Source of the DNA: a virus
Virus record (IMG/VR): IMGVR_UViG_3300037242_000178
Coordinates: 1 to 62,017 of that record
Strand: one strand, 5' to 3'
DNA length: 62,017 bases
Positions 25,433 to 62,017 of the stretch are shown here, piece after piece. How positions within the stretch are numbered: the first letter of the stretch is position 1; each line of letters begins with the position of its first letter. A program made the position numbers and the translations under genes. Under the pieces are notes generated by a model. The model did no database searches and was not told the origin of the DNA. It worked only from the letters and a program-made list of their open reading frames with translations.

Positions 25433-25449
25433 AATAAATTCGATTTATT
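25433..25449. promoter_or_regulatory. Palindrome AATAAAT-TCG-ATTTATT
   Basis: Perfect 7-bp arms with a 3-bp centre, overlapping the sheath stop codon just upstream of the tube gene. The AATAAA/TTTATT outer arms match those of the palindrome at 18838-18854, and both sit at the same kind of gene boundary. Confidence 0.45.
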
Positions 25450-27205
25450 CCACGTCGAAGGCGGACATGTTTAGATTCAAGACGCTCCCGCCGTCCGTCC
25501 ACCAAAAAGTAATGGATGGACTTCCGCCATTGCCGCGCACGACAGAGCCTGGATCAAGCACTTGCAAATACCAACCGCGAGTTGCCAATGTCGTTCCAAT
25601 GTTCTTTCCGGCCTGACTATTTACCGTTGCGATTTGCGCAGCAGACAAGTTCACGCCGGGCTGAATCGCGCCAAACGTCAAGGCCGCGTCAATCGTGGGC
25701 TGCAAGTAAGCTTCTATTAGCGCATATCCGGCGGGCACATAAGGGATAGCGGTTTCTGTAGTCAGCAGCGTCATCATTCCGGTTTGGAATCCAGCTTGCA
25801 TGATGATTTGATTGATGTAACGTTCAATCGTGCCGAACGTTCCCGTGATCGTTTGCGGATAGAAGAACTGCCATTGGTTCGTGCGATTTGCGGCAGCAAC
25901 ATAAGTGTTGTAACCGTTTGCAATCAAATTCGCTAACACAGTTTCGCTGCTGACCGCCGGTGAAATCCCTGCCTGAGATTTATACGCTGCGGAAGAATTT
26001 CCGTTCGTTTGCGTCTGATCTATCGACGCGATAAATCCCATTTCAAACGCGGCCAAGCTTAAATCTGACGGCTCATAAATAAGGATCGTCCCCGAATTGC
26101 CATTCGCTTTTAGGATTTGTCCGAGCGACGATGCTGCGTCGGTCGATTCGGTAGGGGTGATGTCGGTGTCCCACGCAACATAAGCGAATTGATTGTCTTG
26201 AAGCGTTACCCATGCAGCGAATTCTTGCTTTATCGTGTTGCCGGAACCGCCATCTGGATCGAACAACGTGGTGAAAGAAACCCAATTCGACGTTTGCTGT
26301 GCCAACGCCGTCATAAACGCATTTGGCGTCGAAGACGTCGGAGCGGCAGCGCCAGCCGACACAATCGCGCCTGTCGCGGTTGTCAATCCAAGACCGACCG
26401 TGAACGCGCCCAAAGGCCCGAACGCATCGACAGCGCTAGACGCCAAATTACTCGGAGTAGCTGCTGCGCTGATCGTGTAAGTGCCAGCGCCGCCTGTGCC
26501 AGTTCCTAGCGCGGTAATTGTCGTTCCGACAGGCAACGAATTCGTGCCGTCCGTTCCCGTCACGACATCGCCAACGTGATACGTGCCGACAACCGTGCCG
26601 GAAATTGTTAATACCGTTCCGGTCGTCGTGCTGGTCGTCGAGGTCGCCGTGCCGCTTATCGCAGTCGTAATCGTTTCGCTTGCGCCGGTAGCAGTCGTCG
26701 TAAAAAGAAAACCGCCGGAAACGCTGTCGTAAGTTACAGTGCCAACGAACGCGGCAAATTCCGATTGGATATACGCAGCAGCAGCGGAAAAAGTTCCGTA
26801 AGAACTCAAATTGATCGCGCTGGATGTTTTCCAAACGCCATTCACTTCCAGCATCAACGTGCCGGACAGCGCTTCCAACTGCGCGGAAGTCAACGACGAC
26901 ACATTGCCGCCACGTAGCCATGCAGGAGTGGCGACTGTGTTGTATTGCGCGAAAAGAAGCGCAGCAGGTTTCTGAAACGATCCTGTGTTTCCGGCGAAAT
27001 ACACCTCGGATTGATTGAATTCGTTCGACGACAATCCAAAATACGCCCCGACATTCGCGGCAGAAGAAAAAGTTAACACTTGACCGATAGGAATGCGGCT
27101 GCTATTCGTCAGAAACAATCCGCTAAGATTGATTCCCGCGCCGCCTGCGCTTATTACAGCAGTGTTGACATTCGCAAAAAACGAAGCTGGAATCGATGCT
27201 GCCAT
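25445..27205 (-). CDS. Tail sheath protein (DUF3383-like) with an inserted beta-domain
   Basis: A 586-residue contractile sheath protein: N-terminal FFANVNTAVISAGGAGINLS and VGAYFGLSSNEFNQSEVYFA, then a C-terminal half with YAYIAWDTD-like sequence and QAGFQTGMMTLLTTETAIPY, as in DUF3383 sheaths. About residues 185-265 are a Thr/Gly-rich insertion ([38 protein letters not shown]) of the repeated beta-domain family described below. The extra domain probably projects from the tail surface. Confidence 0.88.
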   Translation of the reverse strand: MAASIPASFFANVNTAVISAGGAGINLSGLFLTNSSRIPIGQVLTFSSAANVGAYFGLSSNEFNQSEVYFAGNTGSFQKPAALLFAQYNTVATPAWLRGGNVSSLTSAQLEALSGTLMLEVNGVWKTSSAINLSSYGTFSAAAAYIQSEFAAFVGTVTYDSVSGGFLFTTTATGASETITTAISGTATSTTSTTTGTVLTISGTVVGTYHVGDVVTGTDGTNSLPVGTTITALGTGTGGAGTYTISAAATPSNLASSAVDAFGPLGAFTVGLGLTTATGAIVSAGAAAPTSSTPNAFMTALAQQTSNWVSFTTLFDPDGGSGNTIKQEFAAWVTLQDNQFAYVAWDTDITPTESTDAASSLGQILKANGNSGTILIYEPSDLSLAAFEMGFIASIDQTQTNGNSSAAYKSQAGISPAVSSETVLANLIANGYNTYVAAANRTNQWQFFYPQTITGTFGTIERYINQIIMQAGFQTGMMTLLTTETAIPYVPAGYALIEAYLQPTIDAALTFGAIQPGVNLSAAQIATVNSQAGKNIGTTLATRGWYLQVLDPGSVVRGNGGSPSITFWWTDGGSVLNLNMSAFDVE

Positions 27206-31076: not shown

Positions 31077-32297
31077 TTAGCCGTTGAGATAACTTGTCAT
31101 CTTGACAAGTTCACCCGGCGCACCGATTGAACTTGCAACCCATTTCGTTTCGACGCCAATATCGACAGTGACTGTTCCCGACGCGAACGTGTACGATTGC
31201 GACACAAGATATGTTCCTGCGCCGCCAAGACCGGTCAAGTTCGGGTTCGTCGCGCCCGTCGCCAAAATGTACGAATACGGCGCAGCCGAAGGGATGTTTG
31301 CGCCGCCAGTCAGCTGGTCGTTTATCGCCCACGTCCCCGTCGAAGAAGAATCGACCGTTAGCAGCGAGGTATTAGTCGATGTGATCGTTCCGGCAGTGAC
31401 AGCCGTTGCGGCAGGCTGATTAAGCAGGTAAGTGCCGGCGCCGCCCGCAGTTGCCGATATCAACGCTGTAATCGTTGTCCCGGCAGTCAACGAACCGCTT
31501 GCGGCTACGGATAATGCATTCCCGACAGCGAAGATGCCGGAAGTGTTTGCGCCGGTTAGCGTCATGCAGCCGCCCGAAGCCGTGATCGTGCCGGAAGCGA
31601 CGTTTTGCGAAATATTGACGGTATAGACACCGACGCCGCCGTTTGTGCCGCTGACAAAACCGGTAATCGTCGTGTTCGGATCGACAGGATTCGCTGTAGG
31701 CCCGCCGGAAATCACTTGGCCTGCGCCAAGTACCGTGCCGGAAGCGATTGCCGTGACAGTCAATGTCTGCCCTGCAATCGAACCAGTGAACGAAGGGCCT
31801 GTTGCCGGGATTGCTGCGCCGGTTGATGCGGAAATATTCTTAACGACAGTCGCGGAAGTCGCGGAGCCGGAAGTCGGAGGCGAACCGGTAACGCCGAACG
31901 AAATCTGTCCGGTAGAATTGTTCGCATAGGCTTTGTTGCCAATGGCGCTAGTCGTCGTTCCGCTGTTAAGCACCCAGAAACCACCGGCATTAAATATTTC
32001 GCACGGGGAACCTGGATAAGCTGTCATCACAGCATACGCGAGGTAATTCGTAATGATGCCTTGTTGATTGCGGCGGAAAAATCCGGTAGGCAATCCCGGG
32101 CCAAAACTGTTTAGAAACGTGTTTGTGGGATCGGCCCAAGCAAAGCACCCGACAGACAGCCCGTTAGGCCCGGCAACGAACGCGCCTTGACCTGCATCGA
32201 CGGTGGACGCGACGTTAGCCGCCGTGCCGTCGCAAAAATCGCCTAGAACTGCTGGCGCGCCCTGGGTGTTCACTAAACGTGGAAAATCTCCGAACAT
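31077..32297 (-). CDS. Capsid cement/decoration protein (Gp24-like) with several inserted beta-domains
   Basis: A 406-residue protein. Residues 1-145 (VNTQGAPAVLGDFCDGTAAN, GFFRRNQQGIITNYLAYAV, GFWVLNSGTTTSAIGNKAYA) and the last 25 (TKWVASSIGAPGELVKMTSY) are a normal structural cement protein of about 170 residues. Between them are about 230 residues made of three to four Thr/Gly/Ala-rich beta-modules (TGSIAGQTLTVTAIASGTVL, GGVGVYTVNISQNVASGTIT, TALISATAGGAGTYLLNQPA), related to those in sheath, gpJ and tail terminator. These would project from the capsid. Confidence 0.78.
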   Translation of the reverse strand: MFGDFPRLVNTQGAPAVLGDFCDGTAANVASTVDAGQGAFVAGPNGLSVGCFAWADPTNTFLNSFGPGLPTGFFRRNQQGIITNYLAYAVMTAYPGSPCEIFNAGGFWVLNSGTTTSAIGNKAYANNSTGQISFGVTGSPPTSGSATSATVVKNISASTGAAIPATGPSFTGSIAGQTLTVTAIASGTVLGAGQVISGGPTANPVDPNTTITGFVSGTNGGVGVYTVNISQNVASGTITASGGCMTLTGANTSGIFAVGNALSVAASGSLTAGTTITALISATAGGAGTYLLNQPAATAVTAGTITSTNTSLLTVDSSSTGTWAINDQLTGGANIPSAAPYSYILATGATNPNLTGLGGAGTYLVSQSYTFASGTVTVDIGVETKWVASSIGAPGELVKMTSYLNG

Positions 32298-32325: not shown

Positions 32326-35300
32326 TTATTTGACTAGACGGAGAAGTTCGGGAAACGCCTTTTCCATGCCATCGCCTTGCGGCTGCGCGTCTTGCGCAAT
32401 GCGCGATTTATGCGCTTCGCCCGGCTTCTGTTGCGCGGCTAAAACAGATTTATAGGCGCTCGGGTGCAAATCCTTAATATCGATTTTCATCGCTTCAAGC
32501 GCGGCTTTATAAACCGCTTCGGCACTATCCATGGCAACAAGCTTGCCGACGTAAGGCTTGATGAACTCTTCGGCTTCAACGATAGCGCGCATATTCGCCA
32601 TAACCTTCGCTTCGGTTTTCTTTTCCGTCGCATCGCAAGCAAGTTGAATCGCTTTATCCATGGCTTTCTTCATTTCTTTCGCATCCATCATATCTTCCTT
32701 ATTCTCTTTGTCATCCATGCCTTTTGCAGCGTCCTTGTCCTTCTTACCGCCAGGATTCGCAGTTGCCGCGCCCGGGGTCTGTGTCGGTTCGTCCTTCGCT
32801 TTCGCTTTTTCGACCGGCTTGGCGGATAGCATGCTTTCAATCTGCATTAAATCTTCGTCAGAGATTTTCCCACGAAGCATGCCAAGGATACTTTCGCACT
32901 TTGGGCCGGGATCGTCCATCGCTACATTGTCATCGTCAGGCTTTTCAGAATCAAGTTTGTCCAGTAGCGCGACGATATCTTTCAAATCGGCATCCGCCGC
33001 CAAATGCGGCTTGACAGCGGCAATAATCCCCGGCTTCTTTTCAAGCCAGTTTTTCCGCTTGACGCCTTCAAGGATTTTATTTAAGTCGATCTGCGAGTCC
33101 GCAGCCAACATCTTTGGGGTAAGCACTGCGAGCAAAGCTCCGTGCGCGAGAACCGCCTTTTTACTTAGCTTGCTCATAGTTAAAACTCCTGGGTTGAAAT
33201 TGATTTTACTGTCGCTTGCCACTCTAACATCATGTCCAGCACGCCCAACTTGCACCAAAGCAATATGGTTAAACTTAATGTCGCGCATCACGCCATCGTA
33301 ATGACTGCCGTCCGGCGAAACGCCTGGAGTCATGTCGGGGCGGTAATAATATGCGCAACTGATTTCCTGCTGCCGACCGGTTTCTACACCGCAGATTGCG
33401 TCTTTCGTCCAAATTACTAACGATTGATCCAGGTACGGCGCGTTGAACACTGCGTCCGTGCCTGTCGCTCCGACGATCGAATCCGGCTTGTGATCTGTCA
33501 CATCAACCGCAACATGGTCGTTCAACAGAGGGATGTTATTCGCCGTTGACGCGCCCTTTTTCAATTCTTCCGGGTCACGATAGAGCAAATACACTTTATC
33601 GGCTTGCAATCCCAGTTTTTGATAATCCGGGATTTCTGCTCCTGCATATTGGCAGACGTTCGCTTTGCTGATATGCGTCAAAGCGATATGCATCCGCCCA
33701 TCTTGGTCTACTGTTCTGACAGAGGCTTTATCGAAGGTTAGGGAATCGTTGGCGCGAGGGTGATCCGACTCTTTAAAATCGGAATCCTGCGCATTCTCCC
33801 GATTCATGACAGCGATTTGATCTTGCGTGTATCCGCAATAAAATCCTGCGTCTTCTCCCAAGGCGGAATCGAATTCGACCTCAGCGGCAGAAGCCGGTTC
33901 ATAGCGCGGGGCATGCCTCCTATGAAAATCAGCCCACAACTCGCCTTCATGACCCAACAACTCGTGTCCCCATATCGACGGATCGTTTTCATCAATCCGT
34001 CCAGTTGTCGGCATTTGCCTTTTCACAGTTGCCGATTGATTCTGCGCTCCAGAAACAGCCTTAGTCTGAGGAGATGCGGCATTCGACGAATACTTTTCCA
34101 ATTCTTTCGGCAATTCCCCTCCAGAGTGATACCACTTCTTTTTGTCTGCGTCCCATCTTGCGCCATGCTTCTTCGCATGGTCTTTGTCGTCGTATTTCAC
34201 ATTCAAGTACGTCCTTTGCACAGCTTCTTTTTGTTTTCTCTCTTGACGCTCATGTGTCCCGAAATTTAATTTGTCAGCCAACCATGGAGCCATCGATTTT
34301 ATTTCGTATCCATGCGCTTTCGACGCGCTTTTTGGAATCCACAGCACGTCCTTTTCTCCCTGACCGGGATTTTCAACTCCATACGCAGCGTCGGTTTCTT
34401 TTATTATTTTCTTCGGGACAGTCAAGGTTTCATGCTCAGTCGGCTTTTCAAAAGGCTTCGCCAGAGATTTTTCTCTTTCTTCCTGCCTTGCAGCAGCCGC
34501 TTCAGATTTCCGTTTCGCTTCTTCAGATTTCCGTTTCGCTTCGATTTCCGCCCTTTTTATCGCGGCTTGTCGATAAGGCTCCGCCCTCTTTTCTCTTTCT
34601 GTTCTTGCACGCTCTTTTGCTTCTTCTGCGTTTTTCTGAACGACCTCTTCATGTTCTTTTAGAAGATGGTCGAACTTTCCGCTTTTAACTTGTTCTTTCC
34701 ATTGAGAGCGCGAGCCTTCGCCTTTCGGGCCATGCTTTTTGTACAAATCCTCGTTCTTCTGAATGCTTTTCCTTTGCTCGTCGGAAAGCTCTCCTTTAAA
34801 TTCTGACGTTTCCAAGTCATTAAACGCAGTCTTTAAATCGATTTTTTTAGACGGTTGCTCACTTGCTTTCGGCGAATACCCCAAAAGTTTTGTTACATCC
34901 TTGCTTTTGCTTTTCGGGGAAAGTTTCTTTCCGTTTAAGCTCCCGCCAGCGCCGCCAATCACTTCACCCTCGCCGTTCAGCAACAAATGCGTACCGGTTT
35001 GGGACGTTATCCAATGCTGTGAAGCATCCTTCGCCATCTTCCCCATAGCTGCGTCAACCACTTCTCGCATGCCGTGGTGCATCGGCTCAGGAGCATCTAC
35101 CAACTTGCGCCAAACGAATGCCGTATGCTCCGATTTATCGATTTTCGGCGTAAATTTATGACGAACAAACATGCGGTAGGTAATGAAATCCACATCGCTG
35201 CCGCTATCGTCTTTACTAGACGTGTCGGCTAGCTGTTCTAGCTCGCCATACGGCATTGCGCCGATCTCTTCTCGCGTTTCGCGCTTGGCGGTTTCTTCCG

Positions 35301-35445
35301 GCGTTTCGTCTTCGTCAGCTCTGCCGCCTGGAAAATCCCATTCGTTCGGATGATTCGCGTCGGGAGAGCGCAATAGGAATAGCGCCTCTCCTTCAGGCGT
35401 GACCAGCATTATTCCTGCGCCTTTGATTTTTTCGTCAACTGACAT
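32326..35445 (-). CDS. Nudix hydrolase - DUF5710 - DUF2213 prohead protease - scaffold fusion
   Basis: A 1039-residue polyprotein. Residues 8-135 form a Nudix domain with the box GGRADEDETPEET then REEIG (about 40-62). Residues 225-335 form a charged coiled coil, and 412-455 a DUF5710-type motif (YLNVKYDDKDHAKKHGARWD). About 490-790 is a DUF2213-like capsid maturation protease (FDKASVRTVDQDGRMHI, IPLLNDHVAVDVTDHKPDSI, MRDIKFNHIALVQVGRAGHD), and 800-1039 an Ala/Lys/Asp/Glu-rich scaffold-like tail. DUF2213 proteins are normally 350-500 residues; the N-terminal 480 are extra. The protein would enter the prohead and be cut there, possibly freeing the Nudix part. Confidence 0.8.
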   Translation of the reverse strand: MSVDEKIKGAGIMLVTPEGEALFLLRSPDANHPNEWDFPGGRADEDETPEETAKRETREEIGAMPYGELEQLADTSSKDDSGSDVDFITYRMFVRHKFTPKIDKSEHTAFVWRKLVDAPEPMHHGMREVVDAAMGKMAKDASQHWITSQTGTHLLLNGEGEVIGGAGGSLNGKKLSPKSKSKDVTKLLGYSPKASEQPSKKIDLKTAFNDLETSEFKGELSDEQRKSIQKNEDLYKKHGPKGEGSRSQWKEQVKSGKFDHLLKEHEEVVQKNAEEAKERARTEREKRAEPYRQAAIKRAEIEAKRKSEEAKRKSEAAAARQEEREKSLAKPFEKPTEHETLTVPKKIIKETDAAYGVENPGQGEKDVLWIPKSASKAHGYEIKSMAPWLADKLNFGTHERQERKQKEAVQRTYLNVKYDDKDHAKKHGARWDADKKKWYHSGGELPKELEKYSSNAASPQTKAVSGAQNQSATVKRQMPTTGRIDENDPSIWGHELLGHEGELWADFHRRHAPRYEPASAAEVEFDSALGEDAGFYCGYTQDQIAVMNRENAQDSDFKESDHPRANDSLTFDKASVRTVDQDGRMHIALTHISKANVCQYAGAEIPDYQKLGLQADKVYLLYRDPEELKKGASTANNIPLLNDHVAVDVTDHKPDSIVGATGTDAVFNAPYLDQSLVIWTKDAICGVETGRQQEISCAYYYRPDMTPGVSPDGSHYDGVMRDIKFNHIALVQVGRAGHDVRVASDSKINFNPGVLTMSKLSKKAVLAHGALLAVLTPKMLAADSQIDLNKILEGVKRKNWLEKKPGIIAAVKPHLAADADLKDIVALLDKLDSEKPDDDNVAMDDPGPKCESILGMLRGKISDEDLMQIESMLSAKPVEKAKAKDEPTQTPGAATANPGGKKDKDAAKGMDDKENKEDMMDAKEMKKAMDKAIQLACDATEKKTEAKVMANMRAIVEAEEFIKPYVGKLVAMDSAEAVYKAALEAMKIDIKDLHPSAYKSVLAAQQKPGEAHKSRIAQDAQPQGDGMEKAFPELLRLVK

Positions 35446-48086: not shown

Positions 48087-49628
48087 TTATTTTTCAAATC
48101 TATCTTTATTTAACTCAAAAACTTTCCCGTTTGACATCTGACTGGCGTTTTTCACGACATTTTCTCCGTGCGCGATTATTTTTTCATTAAGATTTTCGTC
48201 GGAAAGCATTTCTTTCCTCACGAAAGCTACACGCGACCTTTCCATCCTCGTGCCGCCCCGAAAAATCCACTTTTCTTGCCCCGACTGCGGATTTTTTGAA
48301 ACGTACCCGGCCTGTTGCATCCGTTTATGCAGTAAGCGCGTGGCTGAGACCACCTCCCGAACTTTATCTGCATGGTCGAATCCGTCGCGAAGCAACTCGA
48401 ACCCGAATACAATCTGTGGTCTTCCCAATCGATCAAGCGCTGCATCGAAAGCGTCTTCCGGTACCCCCCACGTATTGCACACACTCTGTTTCATCACGGT
48501 GTCTTTTGCCGATGCTTTGGGATCGAACGAGGATATGTCTCGCTGCATGAGCCATGCGTTGACCGCTGCGAACCCTACTTTATCCATCCATGCCACAAGA
48601 TTTTTAAAGTAGCTTTCATCATCTTCTCTTTTGAACCATTCTGAGGCTAATGGGGAATGCATGATAAACATCCGTTTATCTTCTTCGGGGATGTGCATAG
48701 CGAAAGGATCGTTTGTCGTCATGATAATCCGCAGAATGTTGATGACGTATTGCTGGTTGATGCCTTTATATTCTATCGGTAGCGTGTCAGGCGGCGCGGC
48801 GCACAACGGCTTTAAAATGTTGTACATCGCAATCGCCTGTGCTTTGGCCACAGGTTTTACTTCATCGATGACGAGTAACGCTGTTTTCAAAAAAGGCTGG
48901 AATCGAAGAAACAATTGATCCGGCCCTATTCTGCGGCAGTTCCAGTGCCCCATCGATTTTATGACGGGTTGGAGAGCGACATCTTTCCCTATTCGCGTTT
49001 CGCCCGACAAAATTATCGCGATATTGCATTTTTCATATGTCTTTTGCACCATGTGCGCGCAATAATCAAAGAAAACATTGTGCTCTTCTTTGTCAGGCCA
49101 AAGCTTTTTTACGTGATTTATCCAAGGCCACGCCATGTCCACATCACCTTTCAGGTCTGGCGGCGGAACGTATTGATTATAGAAACGTCTTCCGGGAACT
49201 GGGGAAGCTCCCGCTTCTCCGACGAAAAAATTTTCGATGATTTGAGGCTTTCCAGGCCACCATGTGGAACCTTCGACGAACTGATTCCGCTCCACGCGCT
49301 TTATGTCTTCGCTAGGCTTTATCAATTTTGCTTTTTTTGTTTTAGGTCTTCCGGCTTTTTTTGGCGCAGCTGAATCCCCTTGTTCCATGGGTGACTCAGA
49401 TTCACTGTTAATTAGCCGCCACCTCTCAATAGGGATAGATGCGTCTACGGCATCAGGGCCGTTCAGGGTGCCATCTTCCAAATCCCAAAATTTTTCTTGA
49501 GATTTGTCATAAATGTAATCTTCTATTTTTGCTAACCGCCTCTGTTTTTTTGTTGCTTCGATTAAGTTTTTTTCACGCGCTTCTACACGCGCTTGCATCT
49601 CAATCTGAGTTGGCGTTTCGGTTTCCAT
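48087..49628 (-). CDS. SF3-like replicative helicase (DUF5906-type)
   Basis: A 513-residue protein. Residues about 200-340 form the ATPase core: Walker A-like IILSGETRIGKDVALQP, Walker B ALLVIDEVKP and motif C NILRIIMTTNDPFAMHIPEE, followed by DKRMFIMHSP. This series fits the phage/plasmid DUF5906 (D5/VirE-like) helicases that pair with primases. The N-terminal 150 residues are charged and linker-like; the C-terminus has a winged-helix-like region. With the primase gene upstream it forms the initiation module. Confidence 0.82.
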   Translation of the reverse strand: METETPTQIEMQARVEAREKNLIEATKKQRRLAKIEDYIYDKSQEKFWDLEDGTLNGPDAVDASIPIERWRLINSESESPMEQGDSAAPKKAGRPKTKKAKLIKPSEDIKRVERNQFVEGSTWWPGKPQIIENFFVGEAGASPVPGRRFYNQYVPPPDLKGDVDMAWPWINHVKKLWPDKEEHNVFFDYCAHMVQKTYEKCNIAIILSGETRIGKDVALQPVIKSMGHWNCRRIGPDQLFLRFQPFLKTALLVIDEVKPVAKAQAIAMYNILKPLCAAPPDTLPIEYKGINQQYVINILRIIMTTNDPFAMHIPEEDKRMFIMHSPLASEWFKREDDESYFKNLVAWMDKVGFAAVNAWLMQRDISSFDPKASAKDTVMKQSVCNTWGVPEDAFDAALDRLGRPQIVFGFELLRDGFDHADKVREVVSATRLLHKRMQQAGYVSKNPQSGQEKWIFRGGTRMERSRVAFVRKEMLSDENLNEKIIAHGENVVKNASQMSNGKVFELNKDRFEK

Positions 49629-49905: not shown

Positions 49906-50874
49906 TCAACCGTTATCTTCCGCTGCATTCTCCAATTCCTCCCCGGACGTTTCGTTTATCCAATCCGTCAACTCATGCCATCCTGCGCTGGAACAAACAG
50001 AGTTGCCATGGTGACAACGAAAAGACCCGAAATATCCGTTTTCCGGCGCAGGCTCCCGAATGGCCGCGCCGGTGTCGGCTCTATCGGTATGATTGCCGAT
50101 GAAAGGGCAGTGAACCTCCATCCACCCGGAGCTGTCGGGCGTGTCTCTTTTTAACATTCCTCGCGCATAAAGCCATTTCCAATAAACGAGGAACATGCGA
50201 TTACGCTCAATCGCATCCTCGCTAACCAAGCGCAGCGGCTTGACAATCGTCCCGTTAATGGTTAGTTTAAACGCTTTGAGCAGCGCATCGATTGAATACC
50301 GCTTTTCGTTTAATTCCAATAAAGTCACTTTAAACGCGCCGCCATATTTCGCTTTGTCGTTGACATAACCGGGGATCCGCGCCACCCGCGTCACACCGGC
50401 TTGCCCTGGATCATGGCCGAGCAATTGCGCAGAGATGAACGCCCTGATTAATCCGTCGAACCGCCCCATATCCGTTTCCGGCCTGTCCAGGATGTACAAG
50501 CACTGATGATTGTTCGGGGACGTTTCGACAATCGATGTAGGCGGCAAAGCCTTGATGATATCTGGAGACACTTTCGACCCGAGGCCAGTTCCGACATCAT
50601 CGATAAACAGCGCCCGACCTGCGTCGAAACATGCGCCTCTACGGCGGAACGAATTATCAGCAGCACGCCCGAAGCTGCTGATGGTGACGTAAGCGTTCAT
50701 TTTCGGCAAAATTCCACAGTCGTACATCAAATCCTTGTCTGCCGACCATGGACGCGGCTTCCAGGCGGATGGCCCGACTTTATTCGGATCGCCTGCGAAT
50801 CCGCAAACGATTAATCTTTTTTCTTTTGGCAAATCCGCTCCAAGCGCGGACATAAACTCTTCGTTTTGCGACAT
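49906..50874 (-). CDS. RepB-like (AEP) DNA primase with C-terminal zinc motif
   Basis: A 322-residue protein. Primase motifs: RALFIDDVGTGLGSKV (metal-binding acidic pair, about 88), SIVETSPNNHQCLYILD (about 113) and VTRVARIPGYVNDKAKYGG (about 160-180), the order seen in RepB-type archaeo-eukaryotic primases. The C-terminal part has CPFIGNHTDRADTG and GSFRCHHGNSVCSSAG, Cys/His-rich like the CHC zinc fingers of phage primases. A TAAAGTCACTTTA palindrome lies inside the gene (50320-50332). Confidence 0.8.
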   Translation of the reverse strand: MSQNEEFMSALGADLPKEKRLIVCGFAGDPNKVGPSAWKPRPWSADKDLMYDCGILPKMNAYVTISSFGRAADNSFRRRGACFDAGRALFIDDVGTGLGSKVSPDIIKALPPTSIVETSPNNHQCLYILDRPETDMGRFDGLIRAFISAQLLGHDPGQAGVTRVARIPGYVNDKAKYGGAFKVTLLELNEKRYSIDALLKAFKLTINGTIVKPLRLVSEDAIERNRMFLVYWKWLYARGMLKRDTPDSSGWMEVHCPFIGNHTDRADTGAAIREPAPENGYFGSFRCHHGNSVCSSAGWHELTDWINETSGEELENAAEDNG

Positions 50875-52651: not shown

Positions 52652-53188
52652 ATGGACTGTGGCGGAAACACTCATCTCGATAAGGCGAAAAAAGAAGGCC
52701 TTGTTGAATTTAACGACAGGCTTAAGCTTAAGCTGGATTATCTCTTAGCTCGGGCACGAGGATACCCCAATTCTTTTTCCCCTGTGCAAAAAGCGTTCAT
52801 GTTTAATTTAACCGGCAAAGCGCTAGCTGGCGCCGGTTATCTGCCTGAAAGCAGCATTAAAATGCTTGACGAGCTATTCCGCCTCCTTCCTGCGTTTGCA
52901 GACGCAACCCGCGGAGCCTTCAACGCATGCGACCCGAACCGGGAGCCGGACAAAAAACAAGAAAAAGCGAACGACATTCAACGCGACGGCGATCATTACA
53001 AAAAATCGAAAATTCAGGTTCGGGATTTTATCGTCGCCAACAACCTTAATTATTTAGAGGGAAACGCGATTAAATATATAACGCGGCACCGCTCGAAAAA
53101 CGGTAAAGATGATTTGTTGAAAGCGACGCGCTATATCCAAAAGCTGCTGGAAATCGAATATTCAGAGGAGACGGAACGAAATGGCTGA
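52652..53188 (+). CDS. DUF3310-containing early protein
   Basis: ATG 52652 is preferred over 52619, which overlaps the -10 box. The 178 residues comprise a helical N-terminal region and a C-terminal DUF3310-like domain (DHYKKSKIQVRDFIVANNLN, YLEGNAIKYITRHRSKNGKD, then LLKATRYIQKLLE). DUF3310 is common in phages as a short nucleotide kinase-like or unknown domain. First gene of the rightward block, overlapping the ParB-like gene by 8 bp. Confidence 0.75.
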   Translation: MDCGGNTHLDKAKKEGLVEFNDRLKLKLDYLLARARGYPNSFSPVQKAFMFNLTGKALAGAGYLPESSIKMLDELFRLLPAFADATRGAFNACDPNREPDKKQEKANDIQRDGDHYKKSKIQVRDFIVANNLNYLEGNAIKYITRHRSKNGKDDLLKATRYIQKLLEIEYSEETERNG

Positions 53189-53960
53189 ACAAAAAACTCT
53201 CCGGCAGATGGTGGAGTTGAAAACGCACGAAGGGTTGACAAAATCTACTGCGTTCAAAATCGATCCGCGTGAAATCCGGATCGAAAGCGGATTCAATGCT
53301 CGCGCTATCGATGAAAATCATGTCGAAAGCATAAAAGCGTCAATAAAAGAAAATATGCGGATCCCGCCTATCATCGTGAAAGCGGTTGGAAACGCCATTT
53401 ATGTCCGCGACGGCCATCATCGCGTGGAAGCTTATTGTCAATTAATTCGTGAAGGCGAAAAAATCGATAAAATCGATGCGATAGAGTTTAAGGGCACGTG
53501 CGTTGACGAAATCTTTCTGCTTTTGACCAGTGCGCAAGGAAAACCTTTAGCTCCTGTTGAACAGGGATGTCAATTCAAAAAGTTGACGAAAAAAGGGTTG
53601 TCGCACGCGCAGATTGCCAAGAAAATTGGAAAAACCGTCCAGCATGTAGGACAGATGCTGAAACTGATTGAGCTGCCCGAAGACGTTTTGGTGATGGTGA
53701 AATCGGGCGATGTCTCAGCTAGAGTCGCAATGGCGGCAGTAAAGAAAAACGACGCGGCAGCGAAATCCGTTTTACAAGCAGGCATCTACAAAGCGCACGC
53801 GGCTGGCAGAGCGAAAGCGGTGAAAAGAGATTTAAACGACGATCAAATCAGCCTTGAAAAAGCGATCCGGCTGGAAATAAGGTCTAACGGTCTGTGGCGC
53901 GCAGAAAAGTTTTGCGAAAAACACGCCGATTTAATTGCTTATTTGCGCGGATCGAAATAA
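53181..53960 (+). CDS. ParB/RepB/Spo0J-like protein
   Basis: A 259-residue protein. The ParB N-terminal domain has FKIDPREIRIESGFNARAI and the box YVRDGHHRVEAYCQL (about 70-85). An HTH segment follows (GLSHAQIAKKIGKTVQHVGQ, about 137-160), then ELPEDVLVMVKSGDVSARVA and a C-terminal helical part. No ParA ATPase gene or parS cluster is seen, so a role in regulation or DNA processing rather than partition is likely. Confidence 0.8.
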   Translation: MAEQKTLRQMVELKTHEGLTKSTAFKIDPREIRIESGFNARAIDENHVESIKASIKENMRIPPIIVKAVGNAIYVRDGHHRVEAYCQLIREGEKIDKIDAIEFKGTCVDEIFLLLTSAQGKPLAPVEQGCQFKKLTKKGLSHAQIAKKIGKTVQHVGQMLKLIELPEDVLVMVKSGDVSARVAMAAVKKNDAAAKSVLQAGIYKAHAAGRAKAVKRDLNDDQISLEKAIRLEIRSNGLWRAEKFCEKHADLIAYLRGSK

Positions 53961-54518: not shown

Positions 54519-54764
54519 ATGAAGCATGATTGTTCAACTCCGAATCGTCTGTTGAATGCGTTGCAAGAACATTTTGACGTAAAGTTCGATAGCGCGCTAG
54601 CGGATAAACTCGGATATTGTCGCGATACGATCACGCGCTATCGAAAAAAAGAGCATACCATTTCGCGATGCTTTTTAAATAACGCCCGATTAAAAACGGG
54701 TTGGCAAATCGAAAAAGTTTACCTGTTGGCCGGATTTAAATTATTGGAGAATGTAAATGTATAG
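54519..54764 (+). CDS. Small HTH DNA-binding protein, candidate CTAG-operator repressor
   Basis: An 81-residue protein with a compact HTH: LLNALQEHFDVKFDSALADK, LGYCRDTITRYRKKEHTIS, like Cro/CI-type XRE folds, and a C-terminal helix plus hydrophobic strand (QIEKVYLLAGFKLLENV). It lies in the transcript from the operator-promoter at 54197, so autoregulation is plausible. It overlaps the next repeat gene by 8 bp. No protease or oligomerisation domain, so not a LexA-type CI. Confidence 0.65.
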   Translation: MKHDCSTPNRLLNALQEHFDVKFDSALADKLGYCRDTITRYRKKEHTISRCFLNNARLKTGWQIEKVYLLAGFKLLENVNV

Positions 54765-55650
54765 CTTATTTAAAAATCAAGATTCACAAGTTGAGTATTT
54801 AGCTGTTTTGACGCGAGAAATAGGGAGTGAAAGACTTTTTGCAAAAGTCGAAATCGAGGTCATTAAGGACAGCTTGAAGAAGAAAACGATAAAGAAACTG
54901 ATAAAAAACAACCACCCATTGCCCCAGGGTTGCACGATAGACGGCGACGCCTATTTGACGGGCTACGGCCACCAATTACCGCAGGGCTGCACGATTGGCG
55001 GGACGGCCTATTTGACAGGCTACAACCACCAATTACCCCAGGGCTGCACGATTGGCGGGGCGGCCTGTTTGACAGGCTACAACCACCAATTACCCCAGGG
55101 CTGCACGATAGGCGGCATGGCTTGGTTGGAGGGCTACGACCACCAATTGCCCCAGGGCTGCACGATTGGCGGGACGGCCTATTTGGCGGGCTACGACCAC
55201 CCGTTGTCGCCGGGTTGCGCGATAGGCGGCAGCGTTTTTTTAAGAGGCTACGGCCACCAATTGCCCCAGGGCTGCACGATAAGGGGTAGCGCCGATTTGA
55301 CGGGCTACGGCCACCAATTGCCCCAGGGCTGCACGATAGGCGGCAACGCTTGGTTGGAGGGCTACGACCACCCGTTGCCCCAGGGTTGCACGATAGGCGG
55401 CAGCGCCGATTTGAGAGGCTACAACCACCAATTGCCCCAGGGCTGCATGATTGGCGGCAACGCCGATTTGAGAGGCTACAACCACCAATTGCCCCAGGGC
55501 TGCACGATAGGCGGCGAAATTATCGACGACGCTCAAAACGTGCTAAAAGAATTTTCTACGAGCATGTTGTTGGCGTTTGCAAATAGTTTGTTAGACGCGC
55601 CTAAAATTGAAACTGTTGATGAGATTTTGAAAGAAATCGACGGTTTCTGA
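54757..55650 (+). CDS. 19-residue repeat solenoid protein B
   Basis: A 297-residue protein. The N-terminal 52 residues are unique (YSLFKNQDSQVEYLAVLTRE, then a Lys-rich helix), followed by 11 repeat units (QGCTIDGDAYLTGYGHQLP type, about residues 55-258). A different C-terminal domain (residues 258-297, EIIDDAQNVLKEFSTSMLLA then FANSLLDAPKIETVDEILKE) follows. So proteins A, B and C share the array but not the ends. Units differ mainly at 4-5 positions and DNA between units is nearly identical. Confidence 0.85.
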   Translation: MYSLFKNQDSQVEYLAVLTREIGSERLFAKVEIEVIKDSLKKKTIKKLIKNNHPLPQGCTIDGDAYLTGYGHQLPQGCTIGGTAYLTGYNHQLPQGCTIGGAACLTGYNHQLPQGCTIGGMAWLEGYDHQLPQGCTIGGTAYLAGYDHPLSPGCAIGGSVFLRGYGHQLPQGCTIRGSADLTGYGHQLPQGCTIGGNAWLEGYDHPLPQGCTIGGSADLRGYNHQLPQGCMIGGNADLRGYNHQLPQGCTIGGEIIDDAQNVLKEFSTSMLLAFANSLLDAPKIETVDEILKEIDGF

Positions 55651-55845: not shown

Positions 55846-56430
55846 ATGAGTGAACATATAAAAAACAACCGCCCATTGCCGCAGGGCTGCACGATAGGCG
55901 GCATGGCTTGGTTGGAGGGCTACGACCACCAATTGCCCCATGGCTGCACGATTGGCGGCGATGCTTTTTTAAGAGGCTACGATCACCAATTGCCCCAGGG
56001 CTGCACGATAGGCGGCAACGCTTGGTTGGGGGGCTACGACTGCCCGTTGCCCCAGGGCTGCACGATTGGCGTCAACGCTTGGTTGGGGGGCTACGACTGC
56101 CCGTTGCCCCAGGGCTGCACGATTGGCGGCAGCGCTTTTTTAAGAGGCTACAAACACCCATTGCCCCAGGGCTGCACGATTGGCGGCAACGCCTATTTGA
56201 CAGGCTACGACCACCAACTGCCTGCCGACTTAAAAATGTATGGAGTGCCAGGGAAACTGTTGCTTTTCAATAAATATTCGTTATGGAAATCCGTGGATGG
56301 GCTGTATTACGCCGGATGCAAACGCGGGTTGACCTATGACAAGGCCGTGGCACTCGGCGAAAATTTCGAAGATCAAAATCTTTCGGCATTGTTCATCGCT
56401 GCTATTCAAAAAGATTTAGGTTTAATTTAA
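55846..56430 (+). CDS. 19-residue repeat solenoid protein C
   Basis: A 194-residue protein: a 12-residue leader (MSEHIKNNRPLP), six repeat units (about residues 13-126) and a C-terminal domain almost identical to that of protein A (DLKMYGVPGKLLLF through AAIQKDLGLI), including downstream noncoding bases. A Cys replaces His in two GYDCPLP units, and one unit has GV for GG. The shortest of the three, plausibly a deleted or donor copy. Confidence 0.85.
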   Translation: MSEHIKNNRPLPQGCTIGGMAWLEGYDHQLPHGCTIGGDAFLRGYDHQLPQGCTIGGNAWLGGYDCPLPQGCTIGVNAWLGGYDCPLPQGCTIGGSAFLRGYKHPLPQGCTIGGNAYLTGYDHQLPADLKMYGVPGKLLLFNKYSLWKSVDGLYYAGCKRGLTYDKAVALGENFEDQNLSALFIAAIQKDLGLI

Positions 56431-56981: not shown

Positions 56982-57617
56982 ATGAAGATCAAAATAGATA
57001 GAAACCGACTTTTAGCTGCTCTTTGCACTTCCGCAAAAGCGGATCGTCGCGCCGACTTAAATCACATCCTTGTCGAAGCGACAAAGAATGAAACGCGCCT
57101 GACATCGACTACCGGTTCTGTAATGTCTATTCAACGCACGGTTCATTCTGAAAAAGAATCGAATGAATGTGATTTTGCTCGAGTTTTTATCCCAGTCTCG
57201 ATTTGCAAAGGGATAAAGAAAGATTCGATTAATTCTCCATTGCTTTTGGTAGATGACGGGACGAATTGGCATTTGGTTGATTATTTGAAAGGCGTGTCAT
57301 GGGCTTTCAAGGACGTCGTCCACAAGCGACGTCCTTTTGAACAAATGATTCCGAAAAAAACCGACGCAAACGGACGGCACGGGTTCGATCCATTACTTCT
57401 TTTCAAATTTCAAAAAGCGGCGCAAATTCTTCGAAAAAAAAGTGCGCGAATTTCGTTTGAATTCAATGGCTACGACGCCTATGCGGTTTTTGTTCTGAAT
57501 GACCCGGATTATGTCGGCGTTCTGATGTCGCTCAGATTCTCTGGAGGAGAGGTCGAGTTTTGTCCTAGCGATCATTGGGCGCGGACGGCATTGACGTTGA
57601 CGGAATGCGAAAAGTGA
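56982..57617 (+). CDS. DnaN-like sliding clamp (short, about two domains)
   Basis: A 211-residue protein. The N-terminus (KIKIDRNRLLAALCTSAKAD, NHILVEATKNETRLTSTTGS, VMSIQRTV) follows the first clamp domain of bacterial beta. The C-terminal half (FDPLLLFKFQKAAQILRKKS, YDAYAVFVLNDPDYVGVLMS, LRFSGGEVEF) resembles the last domain ending in the protein-binding surface. Bacterial beta has three domains (about 366 aa); this one appears to have two and might trimerise like PCNA, or be a decoy. Overlaps the exonuclease gene by 13 bp. Confidence 0.65.
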   Translation: MKIKIDRNRLLAALCTSAKADRRADLNHILVEATKNETRLTSTTGSVMSIQRTVHSEKESNECDFARVFIPVSICKGIKKDSINSPLLLVDDGTNWHLVDYLKGVSWAFKDVVHKRRPFEQMIPKKTDANGRHGFDPLLLFKFQKAAQILRKKSARISFEFNGYDAYAVFVLNDPDYVGVLMSLRFSGGEVEFCPSDHWARTALTLTECEK

Positions 57618-58162
57618 AACTCGCGATTATTTGGGATACCGAAACTACGGGTCTTCTTTTGCATCCGAATGCGGAGTTGAGCAAACAGCCGCGCATCACA
57701 GAATTTGGCGGCTCTCTTCTCGATTGCGCGACGGGCGCGGTGCGCGACACACTCAACGTGTTGATTAACCCGGGGATAGAATTGTCGCCGGAAATAACGA
57801 AGTTGACCGGAATCACGAATGAGATGTTGCGCGACGAACCGCCCTTCGTTGATGCGTTGCCGAAAATAAGCGCATTTTTTGCGCAAGCGTCAAGCATGTT
57901 CTCGCACAATTTGCCATTCGACAAAGGCGTTTTGATACGTGAACTCCGGCGAATCGATGCGAACGCGATAGAGACGTTCCCGTGGCCTGCGCACGAGTTT
58001 TGTACGGTAGGGCTTTATTCGGAGCAGTACGGGCGAAATCCGCGCCTAATTGAGTTGTATGCGGACGTAATGGAAAAGCCGCTGGAGCAGAAGCACCGCG
58101 CAATGTCAGACGTGGAAGCGTTGATTGAAATCATTCAAAAAGAAAGGTTATATTTATTATGA
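57605..58162 (+). CDS. DnaQ-like 3'-5' exonuclease (proofreading, epsilon-like)
   Basis: ATG 57605 (MRKVKLAIIWDTETTG). The 185 residues show the DEDDh motifs: ExoI DTETTG (about 11), ExoII MFSHNLPFDKGVLIREL (about 96) and ExoIII HRAMSDVEALIEI (about 162). It overlaps the clamp-like gene upstream and a small membrane protein downstream. Likely the proofreader for the DnaE-like polymerase that lacks its own. Confidence 0.85.
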   Translation: MRKVKLAIIWDTETTGLLLHPNAELSKQPRITEFGGSLLDCATGAVRDTLNVLINPGIELSPEITKLTGITNEMLRDEPPFVDALPKISAFFAQASSMFSHNLPFDKGVLIRELRRIDANAIETFPWPAHEFCTVGLYSEQYGRNPRLIELYADVMEKPLEQKHRAMSDVEALIEIIQKERLYLL

Positions 58163-58314
58163 AAAGTGCATTTATCGGTTCGTTATGGCTTTTTATCTGG
58201 ATTTGCGATTTTGCGGCTTCTTCTACCGTAAATTTTGAGTGTCCATGCGAAGTGTTTTCAATCGTCGCTCTTTCCATTATTAGCGCGTGGAATTTTGGAA
58301 AGGCGATCTTTTAA
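58159..58314 (+). CDS. Small membrane protein (51 aa)
   Basis: ATGA overlap with the exonuclease stop. The 51 residues have two hydrophobic segments (AFIGSLWLFIWICDFAA and VFSIVALSIISAWNFG) with a CPC motif between. A membrane protein inside a replication operon. Unknown. Confidence 0.55.
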   Translation: MKSAFIGSLWLFIWICDFAASSTVNFECPCEVFSIVALSIISAWNFGKAIF

Positions 58315-58404
58315 CTGTGAATACTGGCGCAAGACTTTTGGTCATGCCTCAGTTACATCTGTAGCTGGGTGTGTAATTTTTATGGCTCCTAAAAGGACAT
58401 GATT

Positions 58405-58563
58405 GTGAATTTTCTATGTTTTATGCTAGCCTCGACCGCGTTTGCGATGGACGTCTCGCTATTGCCCGTTCTAGCCGTTGATGAAAGCCCTTGGATACTC
58501 TTAGTGCTTGTGTTACTGCCTGTTTGCGTATGGATTTTAATTAGTCGGATTGATAAATTATGA
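58405..58563 (+). CDS. Small membrane protein (52 aa)
   Basis: GTG 58405 with AAAGGA 7 bp upstream. The 52 residues start with a possible short signal (NFLCFMLASTAFA) and have a second hydrophobic helix (WILLVLVLLPVCVWILI). Stop overlaps the next start (ATGA type). Confidence 0.5.
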   Translation: MNFLCFMLASTAFAMDVSLLPVLAVDESPWILLVLVLLPVCVWILISRIDKL

Positions 58564-58700
58564 AATGCATTCTGTGGACAGTTGTGGGCGTGATCAACGC
58601 GGCAATCGTTTTCCCGATGACCGATGGATATCCATTTTGCGCAGCATGCTCGCTAACGTTTGCGCTGTTCGCTGCCTATAAAGCTGCAATGAATTTATGA
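58560..58700 (+). CDS. Small membrane protein (46 aa)
   Basis: ATG 58560 overlaps the previous stop. The 46 residues contain two short hydrophobic helices (ILWTVVGVINAAIVF and AACSLTFALFAAYKAA). The stop overlaps the polymerase start (ATGA at 58697), so translation is coupled. Confidence 0.55.
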   Translation: MKCILWTVVGVINAAIVFPMTDGYPFCAACSLTFALFAAYKAAMNL

Positions 58701-61474
58701 CCATTCCAAATTTAAGAGTGAGAACGGAATTTTCGTTCAAATCCGTTTTCGGGCCGGTTGCGCTGGTAAGCGAAACGCTGGCGAAAATGAAGTGTCCTGC
58801 TGCTGCAATGGTAGATGTGGGGACGTGGGGACATGCGGCATGGGCGAAACAGCTAAAAAAAGACGGCGTAAAACCTATGTTCGGAGTCGAAATCGTCTGC
58901 CCACGAGCGGACGGCAAAAAGCCGTCTTGTTGGGCGCTGGCAACGGAAACGAAAGACTTTTACAATTTAAGCTCGCAAGCGTTAAAGAAAGATGCCGACT
59001 TTGACGAGTTGATGCGCAACGCCCGAGGCGTGATTCGTTTCGCTGGCGCGGCGCTCATGGAACCTGACACGTTCGATTACATCGATATAAATCCGGCGTC
59101 GCTAATCAAGCAAAAACAGGCGCTAGAACTTCACCGAAAAACGGGAAAACCGCTGGTTGTGACGGGGGATAACGCTTATCCTAGGACAGCCGATTACGCC
59201 GCGTTCATGGCGCTTTCAGGGCGCGAAAAGCTTACGCCGCAACACATCCTGTCTGAAGCTGAATTGCGCGCCGCATTGCCCTGCTTGACCGATGCGCAAT
59301 TCGCGCAAGCGGTAAAAAATTCTTTCGAAATCGAGGAGCGCTGCGCCGATGCGCTGCCGACAGCGCCGATAATTGCGTTGGACGGGGACTTGCGCAAAAT
59401 CGTCGAAGAAGGCAAAACCGTAAGGCTGGCGTTGAGACATATAACGGAATGGACGCTGGAGTATCAATCGCGGATGGAGTATGAACTTTCCGTCATCGAA
59501 CTTAAAAAGTTCGAGAGTTATTTCGTTTGTGTGGCCGATTTGATGGAGTGGGCGAAAAAGCGCATGCTGTGCGGCCCGGGACGCGGCTCTTCCGCAGGAT
59601 CGCTAGTTTGCTATTTGCTTCGGATAACCGAAATCGACCCGCTTAAACACGGATTGATGTTTGAGCGGTTCATGTCCCCAGAACGAAACGACATGCCTGA
59701 CATCGATCTTGATTTTAGCGATGTGAAACGTGATGAATGCTTCGCGTATCTCGCTGAGAAATATGGCGCGGAAAAAGTGGCGCGAATCGGGAACATCAAT
59801 ACGTTAAAGCCACGCAGCGCCATGGGAAAAATTTGCGAAAGAATGGCGGTGCAAGATGTCGAACGGTTTAACGTCATCGACGTTTTAATCGATTACAGCG
59901 CAGGCGATGCGCGCTATGGACATTCGTTGGAAGATACGTTCGCGCAAACGGAATCTGGGCGGCGATTTGCAGCGAAACACCCGGAGTTTACGACGGCGCT
60001 TGGCATTGAAAATCATGCGTCGCATACCGGCGTGCATGCGGCAGGAATGATCGTTTGTAACGAGTCGATCAGCGATTTTTGCACGGTAGGGGAGAGCGGG
60101 GTTGCGCAAATCGACAAGCCCTATGCAGAAGCCGTTAACTTATTGAAGATCGATGCTCTTGGATTAAGCACATTGGGAATAATTGAGGACGCAGGATGCG
60201 TGAAAGCCGACGAGCTTTATGCATTGACGTTTGACGATCCTAAAGTCTTTGCGCTGTTGAACTCTCATCGTTTTACTGGCGTGTTCCAATTCGAAGGCAC
60301 ATCACAAAGGCGCATTGCTGCGCAAATCGACATCAAATCGTTTCGAGAAATTAACCACATCGTTGCGTTGGCACGCCCAGGCCCGATGAGTTGCGGCGCG
60401 ACGGAACATTATATCAGACGTGTTGCCGGGAATGAAACTCTCCATTTTCATCACGTCCTGATGGAAGCTTGTTTGGGCGCGACTTACGGAATTGTACTTT
60501 TTCAAGAACAGGTAATGAGGATTTGCGCAGAAATAGGTCTTTTCGACTGGAAAGAGGTTTCCGCCGTTCGCAAATTAATTTCTCTGCGTAAAGGGGAGGA
60601 AGCGCTAAATGTTTGGCGTGAAAAGTTTCTTGCCGGAGCTATCCAAAAAGGCATGAAGGGCGCAGATGCAACGCAACTATGGGATGAAATGGTGTCGTTT
60701 GGGGCGTATGGATTTAACGAAGCCCATAGCGTTGCTTATGGCGCAATTGCTTACTATACCGCATGGATGAAAGTGTATCATCCATTGGAATATGCAGCTG
60801 CATGCTTGCGCAACGCGAAAGACGACGAGCAGGCGCTTTCCTTGCTCAGAGACATGCAGGGGGAAGGTGTCGATTATGTCGCGTTCGATGCGGATCGCAG
60901 CAGCATCGATTGGGAAGTTGTTGATGAAATGTTGATCGGTGGTTTTAAAAATCTGAAAGGATTCGGGCCAGCCAAAGCATCAGCGGCTGTCGAACAGCGC
61001 AACGCTGGAAAATTGAATAAAGAAAAAATTGCGAAAATGGAAGTGAAGTTTGCCGAACTGCGTCCGCTGCACACTGCCTATTCGGATTTGTACCGCAACC
61101 CTGAAAATCATGGATGTCGAACGGGTAGTGTAATCCGCCAATTAAACGAATTGCCGGATGGCGGCGATGTTCTGACAATTGGGCGCGTGATAAAAGTGGA
61201 GTTGCGCGATGAAAACGAGAAAACGCGATTGGATCGACGGAATGGAAAACGAATCGAAGGGCAAACGCTGTTCTTAAACATTATCGTTTCCGACGACACC
61301 GGATCGACATGTACGTTGCGGATTGATCGGTATAAGTACATGCCATTCGGAAAAACGCTTTTTGAAACGCTTAAAATCGGCGACGATTTGTTGTGTAGGG
61401 GATCGAGAATTCCTAGATTCGAAATGATAAAAATCACTCTAGTTAAAGTTTTGAATAGGGAAATAAAGGTTTAA
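58697..61474 (+). CDS. DnaE-like replicative DNA polymerase (C-family)
   Basis: A 925-residue polymerase. The N-terminal PHP-type domain is degenerate: the HxH start is replaced by RVRTEFSF (7-14). The catalytic centre is intact: GPGRGSSAGS (293-302), MPDIDLDF with two metal Asp (333-340) and KIDALGLSTLG (third Asp, about 475). Fingers ARPGPMSCGA and the helix-hairpin-helix-like NLKGFGPAKA follow, then an OB fold (about 815-900). At 925 aa it is shorter than cellular DnaE (about 1160), lacking the extreme C-terminal region. Coupled to the clamp-like and DnaQ-like genes. Confidence 0.9.
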   Translation: MTIPNLRVRTEFSFKSVFGPVALVSETLAKMKCPAAAMVDVGTWGHAAWAKQLKKDGVKPMFGVEIVCPRADGKKPSCWALATETKDFYNLSSQALKKDADFDELMRNARGVIRFAGAALMEPDTFDYIDINPASLIKQKQALELHRKTGKPLVVTGDNAYPRTADYAAFMALSGREKLTPQHILSEAELRAALPCLTDAQFAQAVKNSFEIEERCADALPTAPIIALDGDLRKIVEEGKTVRLALRHITEWTLEYQSRMEYELSVIELKKFESYFVCVADLMEWAKKRMLCGPGRGSSAGSLVCYLLRITEIDPLKHGLMFERFMSPERNDMPDIDLDFSDVKRDECFAYLAEKYGAEKVARIGNINTLKPRSAMGKICERMAVQDVERFNVIDVLIDYSAGDARYGHSLEDTFAQTESGRRFAAKHPEFTTALGIENHASHTGVHAAGMIVCNESISDFCTVGESGVAQIDKPYAEAVNLLKIDALGLSTLGIIEDAGCVKADELYALTFDDPKVFALLNSHRFTGVFQFEGTSQRRIAAQIDIKSFREINHIVALARPGPMSCGATEHYIRRVAGNETLHFHHVLMEACLGATYGIVLFQEQVMRICAEIGLFDWKEVSAVRKLISLRKGEEALNVWREKFLAGAIQKGMKGADATQLWDEMVSFGAYGFNEAHSVAYGAIAYYTAWMKVYHPLEYAAACLRNAKDDEQALSLLRDMQGEGVDYVAFDADRSSIDWEVVDEMLIGGFKNLKGFGPAKASAAVEQRNAGKLNKEKIAKMEVKFAELRPLHTAYSDLYRNPENHGCRTGSVIRQLNELPDGGDVLTIGRVIKVELRDENEKTRLDRRNGKRIEGQTLFLNIIVSDDTGSTCTLRIDRYKYMPFGKTLFETLKIGDDLLCRGSRIPRFEMIKITLVKVLNREIKV

Positions 61475-61507: not shown

Positions 61508-62017
61508 ATGATTGAGCTAAGAAATAATCTGCCATTGCCCCAGGGCTGCACGATTGGCGGCAACGCCGATTTGACGGGCTACGGCCACCAATTGCCCCAG
61601 GGCTGCACGATTGGCGGCGCTGCTTGGTTGAGAGGCTACGATCACCAATTGCCCCAGGGCTGCACGATTGGCGGCGCTGCTTGGTTGAGAGGCTACGATC
61701 ACCAATTGCCCCAGGGCTGCACGATTGGCGGCGACGCTTTTTTAAGAGGCTACAACCACCCATTGCCCCAGGGCTGCACGATTGGCGGCAACGCTTGGTT
61801 GGAGGGCTACGACTGCCCGTTGCCCCAGGGCTGCACGATAGACGGCGACGCCGATTTGACGGGCTACGGCCACCAATTGCCGCAGGGCTGCACGATTGGC
61901 GGCGACGCCTATTTGAAGGGCTACGACCACCCGTTGTCGCCGGGCTGCACGATTGGCGGCGATGCTTTTTTAAGAGGCTACGACCACCAATTGCCCCAGG
62001 GCTGCACGATTGGCGGC
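61508..62017 (+). CDS. 19-residue repeat solenoid protein A, N-terminal part
   Basis: ATG 61508 (AGGAGG 5-6 bp upstream) starts MIELRNNLPLPQGCTIGG and runs into repeat units to the end of the window, in frame with the sequence at 1. Eight units up to the overlap; the remaining ten and the C-terminal domain are at 1-855. It is the next gene after the polymerase, so this array protein is co-transcribed with the replisome. Confidence 0.85.
   Translation, partial: MIELRNNLPLPQGCTIGGNADLTGYGHQLPQGCTIGGAAWLRGYDHQLPQGCTIGGAAWLRGYDHQLPQGCTIGGDAFLRGYNHPLPQGCTIGGNAWLEGYDCPLPQGCTIDGDADLTGYGHQLPQGCTIGGDAYLKGYDHPLSPGCTIGGDAFLRGYDHQLPQGCTIGG

Follow-up and report, generated by a model that had tools for sequence, protein, structure and literature searches.

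The virus record IMGVR_UViG_3300037242_000178 of IMG/VR, analysed here over its entire length of 62,017 bases (the window), encodes on its plus strand a protein of 211 residues (56982..57617) that is identified, by profile matches and a predicted structure, as a homologue of the bacterial sliding clamp DnaN composed of three half-domains, IIa, IIb and IIIb. Domain I and IIIa (the first half of domain III), and with them the two sides of the dimer interface of the beta clamp, are missing from this protein, which is called the mini-clamp below. The mini-clamp is translationally coupled to a DnaQ-like exonuclease, and a PB1-type C-family DNA polymerase is encoded in the same run of genes; it is this pairing of clamp and polymerase that is the unusual part of the locus.

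Homology and fold of the mini-clamp

Searched alone, the window protein has no match in Pfam and no sequence match in the PDB, and its sole good match is to the family phrog_3007 (E 1.9e-12, residues 1-185). Single-sequence searches of viral contigs with the window clamp or polymerase confirmed no close relative, and alignments were required. DnaN domains appear in a Pfam search of the mini-clamp relatives, and a four-member family profile matches solved beta clamps (E. coli beta) at E 1.8e-20. Scanning viral contigs with the four-member alignment yielded 46 loci, and an alignment of 31 rows was built. When the profile is split, residues 1-125 correspond to domain II (DnaN 137-250, E 1.7e-26) and residues 126-190 to the second half of domain III including the terminal VVMPMR (DnaN 317-365), a match that is weak alone (E 1.3e-4, one sequence). 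Residues 191-211 form a disordered tail.

The AlphaFold model of the mini-clamp (pLDDT 85.1, pTM 0.81) contains three beta-alpha-beta-beta-beta units. It aligns to residues 126-366 of E. coli beta over 173 residues (Z 14.5), and about 68 residues of that segment are without counterpart, which matches IIIa in length. Among viral structure models, the nearest ones are of the same size as the mini-clamp (~200 residues). The initial annotation of this DNA, made from its letters, had named a fold unrelated to DnaN as a case against its clamp; both the structural alignment and the profiles give the fold of DnaN. In the dimer interface of beta, I78 and F106 come from domain I, and I272 and L273 from IIIa (PMC11139829); these residues all fall in regions missing from the mini-clamp. 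The mini-clamp has domain II, the second half of domain III, the fold and the location of the peptide-binding pocket in common with bacterial DnaN, whereas domain I, IIIa and the dimer interface are lacking, and 190 ordered residues stand against 366.

The initial annotation had described a clamp that lacks one of three domains. A reduced DnaN-type clamp is indeed encoded, but the loss is larger, extending to domain I plus half of domain III, and the term two-domain clamp has to be given up for a protein of domain II and half of domain III, with three units instead of four. It had anticipated a different ring stoichiometry or a monomeric factor, and it was right to expect that the usual stoichiometry does not hold. 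T4 gp45 and PCNA resemble the mini-clamp in the clamp fold and in having fewer than three domains per subunit; they differ in that each subunit contains two complete domains, that the rings are trimeric and that a loader is required (PMC4858162). Because the mini-clamp does not consist of two whole domains, a trimer in the style of PCNA or gp45 is not the natural prediction, and a gp45-like reading with two whole domains is excluded by the half-domain assignment.

The accepted view of sliding clamps is that whole domains make up the ring (2 x 3 or 3 x 2), and every clamp ring known to us comprises 12 half-domains. Four copies of a subunit with three half-domains would give the same 12, and the mini-clamp could then be the phage's own sliding clamp, a ring of four with probable two-fold (dihedral) contacts between IIIb and IIIb and between IIb and IIb. 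Geometrically, we find that the junctions of half-domains and of sheet edges in such a ring tally, and the face normally covered by IIIa is left open, so that self-pairing is plausible. On the other hand, the canonical head-to-tail interface is lost and no DnaX/HolB-type loader ATPase was found in the probably complete window genome, and we consider a ring of four unlikely.

Distribution and naming of the family

The mini-clamp family, with its 1.5-domain plan (II plus IIIb), is widespread among phages. This plan is shared by members of phrog_3007, which have about 180-215 residues and are homologous over the whole core in the 31-row alignment, and one typical member matches 243 phage records. 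Among the members are BcepC6B gp31, the 'Pol III beta subunit' of IME207, the 'beta-clamp' of Serratia phage Eta and Shigella phage EP23p08. The annotations of the relatives vary (beta subunit, beta clamp, RusA-like), and the name of phrog_3007, 'RusA-like Holliday junction resolvase', seems to be a mislabel that has been spread by re-annotation (e.g., NC_005887 gp31, NC_054648, NC_071152). A RusA resolvase was rejected for the window protein: no RusA match was obtained in Pfam with this protein and four relatives, and the fold and profile are those of DnaN. In the literature searched, no paper on truncated phage clamps was found, although the 2011 survey of viral replicases by Kazlauskas and Venclovas may mention them; as far as this search reached, the family is unstudied. 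E. coli has a shortened form of beta, beta*, which did not come up in the same literature and is not drawn on here.

The peptide-binding pocket and surface charge

Domain II and IIIb together form the peptide-binding pocket of the clamp, and it is precisely these parts that the mini-clamp keeps. Identity of the family to E. coli beta is 72% at 18 pocket residues vs 18% elsewhere, and none of 20,000 random residue sets scored as high. Since the pocket is highly conserved in ordinary clamps too, this identity indicates a retained pocket and not a special role. The retention of just these pieces, together with the identity at the family level, fits a portable clamp pocket that binds host proteins bearing clamp-binding motifs, whether to bring them to phage DNA or to compete with host beta for them, and for this encircling DNA would not be required. 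Several mini-clamp records (e.g., the IME207 and Eta types) are without an A-, B- or C-family polymerase match, which also fits, because host enzymes must then be used. The conservation seen in ordinary clamps, however, gives no pointer to a decoy role, and the window copy has few pocket residues left and its own polymerase alongside. For the window protein we therefore hold such a pocket module to be rather improbable, while the rest of the family, with the pocket intact, may use it to recruit host proteins.

The window mini-clamp agrees with E. coli beta at 7 of the 18 pocket positions, the lowest count of the 31 proteins (9-16 of 18 in the other 30 members); an eighth identity, P242, depends on the alignment. 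H175, R176, N320, Y323 and P363 (E. coli beta numbering) are among the changed positions. Of the clamp-binding surface, whose absence the initial annotation had raised as a case against its clamp, only a part is kept in the window copy. The low count would also be expected of a decaying or neutral gene, gained from another phage and losing its function in the window phage, and no related polymerase locus carries a mini-clamp. The intact frame, a model with high confidence throughout the core (pLDDT 85) and the gene overlap with DnaQ all speak against decay, which we regard as very unlikely.

The window copy also differs in charge. Its net charge is +6 (core +9), the top of the 31 proteins, compared with a family median of -1 and a median of -8 for 78 full-length chromosomal DnaN, which were taken as controls from among 80 loci of a second bacterial genome scan; the first bacterial genome scan found nothing. 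The excess is concentrated in the third helix, which sits on the face lining the DNA in clamps and carries +5 in the window protein; the mean for the family is +2.1, and E. coli beta has -1. The other members of phrog_3007 have the same plan as the window mini-clamp, but have lost less of the pocket and are close to neutral in charge.

A search for a clamp-binding peptide in the DnaE-like protein, which the initial annotation had proposed, came out negative: in a motif scan of the DnaE-like, DnaQ-like and mini-clamp proteins, no consensus clamp-binding motif was found. The lone full consensus match, QLFLRF, lies within the helicase core and is taken as chance. In the large proteins of other mini-clamp phages, no consistent motif was found.

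In a small phage nuclease of the HNH type, the very C-terminus is a motif for binding the beta clamp, which varies in its letters (QMELL, QIALF, QITLF, QLALI, QLELI) but nearly always fits the consensus. It is encoded at L002:2348-2707 (BcepC6B gp34), L222:289-654 (BcepF1), L224:220-654 (Mano) and L227:292-654 (Mica), and also at loci L024, L035, L037 and L040. The BcepC6B nuclease was considered as a partner of the mini-clamp and dropped, because this nuclease, motif included, is also encoded by phages in which the search found no mini-clamp. Being present with and without a mini-clamp, the nuclease is more likely, and probably, tethered to host beta.

The replication operon and its polymerase

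The gene following the mini-clamp encodes a DnaQ-like DEDDh proofreading exonuclease of 185 residues (57605..58162, plus strand; PF00929 E 1.6e-21, phrog_192 E 1.5e-35), and its ATG start at 57605 overlaps the mini-clamp gene by 13 nucleotides. The stretch from DnaQ to DnaE (58159-58700) holds three tiny, hydrophobic and membrane-like open reading frames (ORFs), read from the sequence and all on the plus strand. The start of the first (51 residues, 58159..58314) overlaps the exonuclease stop; a gap of 90 nucleotides separates it from the second (52 residues, GTG start, 58405..58563), and the third (46 residues, 58560..58700) overlaps both the second and the start of the polymerase gene. Three joins of the operon are ATGA overlaps. 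The polymerase gene, assigned by phrog_405, a structure model and a motif scan to a PB1-type DNA polymerase III (Pol III) alpha of the C family with 925 residues, occupies 58697..61474 on the plus strand. The positions given by the initial annotation for the 211-residue, DnaQ-like and DnaE-like genes were confirmed. Its single coupled operon was right as to the coupling, which the gene overlaps bear out, but the three genes are not directly adjacent, as the tiny ORFs lie between DnaQ and DnaE.

The window polymerase is an unremarkable member of the PB1-type phage Pol III alpha enzymes. It matches PF07733 (E 2.2e-66), PF17657 (E 3.5e-33) and phrog_405 (E 1.4e-226), while the PHP match is below the cut-off; a DnaE-like protein with a degenerate PHP domain next to a DnaQ-like one, as first annotated, is therefore supported by these matches and by that of the exonuclease to PF00929. 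Identity to the polymerases of Serratia, Xanthomonas, Luteibacter and Pseudomonas phages is 45% over 99% of the length, and metagenomic relatives reach up to 57%. The parts that can be told apart are the degenerate PHP domain, palm, thumb, fingers, a short HhH region and an OB fold. The catalytic aspartates D335, D337 and D486 (PDIDLDF, LKIDALGL) are invariant in 22 polymerase sequences. An active PHP site carries HxH; the corresponding position is RxR in the window polymerase and RxR or RxRS-like in its relatives. The AlphaFold model (pLDDT 88.7) aligns to residues 4-1073 of E. coli alpha over 847 residues (Z 36.5). The clamp-binding motif of E. coli alpha lies at residues 920-924 (PMC4703070), and the matching site of the phage polymerase is occupied only by a short linker. 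The chain stops after the OB fold, and the tau-binding tail is absent.

The initial annotation had noted this missing C-terminal region, which contacts the clamp loader, and the absence is real. It is not special to the window phage, because the same tail is missing from the PB1-type polymerases of Pbunavirus, Carpasinavirus and Myosmarvirus; the loss of the clamp-binding motif is likewise common to the PB1-type group. A weaker contact with the clamp loader of the host is plausible, but it would then characterise PB1-type polymerases as a group. PB1-type phages have a DnaQ gene like that of the window phage, but in them the mini-clamp was not found: the search covered 80 polymerase loci, 40 such records searched whole and four PB1-type isolates. 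The search used on the isolates detects the mini-clamp in seven positive isolates. It did not detect BcepNazgul (Nazgul21, with a RusA-like name), and divergent members can therefore be missed. In the opposite direction, no DnaE was found in 39 mini-clamp records, and unlike the window mini-clamp none of the phrog_3007 members searched lies beside a C-family polymerase. An A-family polymerase match was obtained in 13 mini-clamp records and no B-family match in the 14 tested, many of these records being fragments. Among the records searched, a mini-clamp and a C-family polymerase occur together in the window alone.

A putative processivity factor for a C-family polymerase

Our preferred reading, which we put forward tentatively and at somewhat less than an even chance, is that the window mini-clamp is a loader-independent, non-ring, basic accessory factor of the phage polymerase, working in the manner of herpesvirus UL42 and UL44. 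The mini-clamp would have become a dedicated accessory factor of the C-family polymerase of this phage. As a monomer or in a small open assembly, it would contact DNA directly with the basic face of its helices and so tether the polymerase, and loading as a closed ring would not be needed. Since no loader was found, the ring interface is lacking and the side facing DNA is basic, an open, self-loading factor would be the simplest reading. Further points in its favour are the overlap of the gene with DnaQ, the operon in common with DnaE and the highest net charge among the 31 proteins. Processivity factors of viruses without clamp loaders are basic and are monomers or C-shaped dimers instead of rings; UL42 is a monomer and UL44 a C-shaped dimer, and both are loader-independent (PMC9690074). 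The likeness is one of working only, namely a clamp fold, basic character, independence of a loader and a viral polymerase partner (PMC9690074). UL42 and UL44 are PCNA-like two-domain proteins with B-family polymerase partners, unlike the mini-clamp, and no membership in their group is claimed.

The contact between mini-clamp and polymerase would be of a new kind, because one or both partners lack the known contacts of alpha with beta. In the E. coli Pol III core, a polymerase motif and an exonuclease motif occupy two pockets of beta, and the OB domain touches beta loops 24-28 and 275-278 (PMC4703070). Both motifs are missing from the phage proteins, and the two loops fall in parts missing from the mini-clamp. 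The lack of a motif in DnaE and DnaQ, together with the most eroded pocket of the family, makes the canonical link unlikely.

Several points weigh against an accessory factor of this kind. The PB1-type relatives all manage without a mini-clamp, the contact with the polymerase is putative, and the excess charge is seen in one of the 31 proteins only. The other family members, near neutral and with the pocket kept, favour a pocket-based role. Moreover, the face exposed by the loss of IIIa suggests a need for a partner or for self-assembly.

The genome and its other genes

Bases 1-99 of the window are identical to bases 61919-62017, an exact 99-base terminal direct repeat whose match ends right at position 99 and which lies inside a repeat-rich gene. 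Since identical ends of this kind are the usual mark of a closed circular assembly, the genome is probably circular, of about 61.9 kb, and complete. Tail sheath, baseplate wedge, portal and terminase genes indicate a contractile-tailed phage. A RepB-type DNA primase (49906..50874; PF16793 E 3.7e-13, phrog_4861 E 1.3e-34) and a DUF5906 primase-helicase-like protein (48087..49628; PF19263 E 2.9e-8, phrog_1156 E 2.1e-18) are both encoded on the minus strand, in agreement with the primase and SF3-like helicase first annotated opposite the operon. A ParB-like protein is encoded at 53181..53960 on the plus strand (phrog_1033 E 1.7e-52), and by annotation ParB-like genes are found together with several other mini-clamps too.

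Genes composed of a 19-residue repeat (LPQGCTIGGxAxLxGYDHQ) occur on both sides of the replication operon, at 16-855, 54757-55650, 55846-56430 and 61508-62017, the first and last being a single gene across the circle junction. The baseplate wedge, tail sheath and minor head protein (16847-18481, 25445-27205, 31077-32297) all match phrog_21413 over a stretch of about 70-90 residues, and a single surface domain may have been inserted into several virion proteins. The head maturation protease (32326-35445, 1039 residues) has a Nudix-hydrolase-like N-terminal part (phrog_1198 at residues 5-128; phrog_2229 at 566-1035).

Implications

Many records name the proteins of this family Holliday junction resolvases, and a corrected name would let others find them. 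A widespread family with the clamp pocket but without the ring interface points to a new kind of ring or to a clamp that is not a ring. It is possible, although doubtful, that a clamp does not have to be built from whole domains as a ring and that phages have cut the bacterial clamp at the level of half-domains, giving either a four-subunit ring of 12 units or an open, self-loading clamp for a C-family polymerase. If true, either form would be a processivity design unseen for Pol III-type enzymes. In the locus described here, a C-family polymerase comes with a possible processivity factor of its own and without a loader, which makes the system far simpler than the host holoenzyme.

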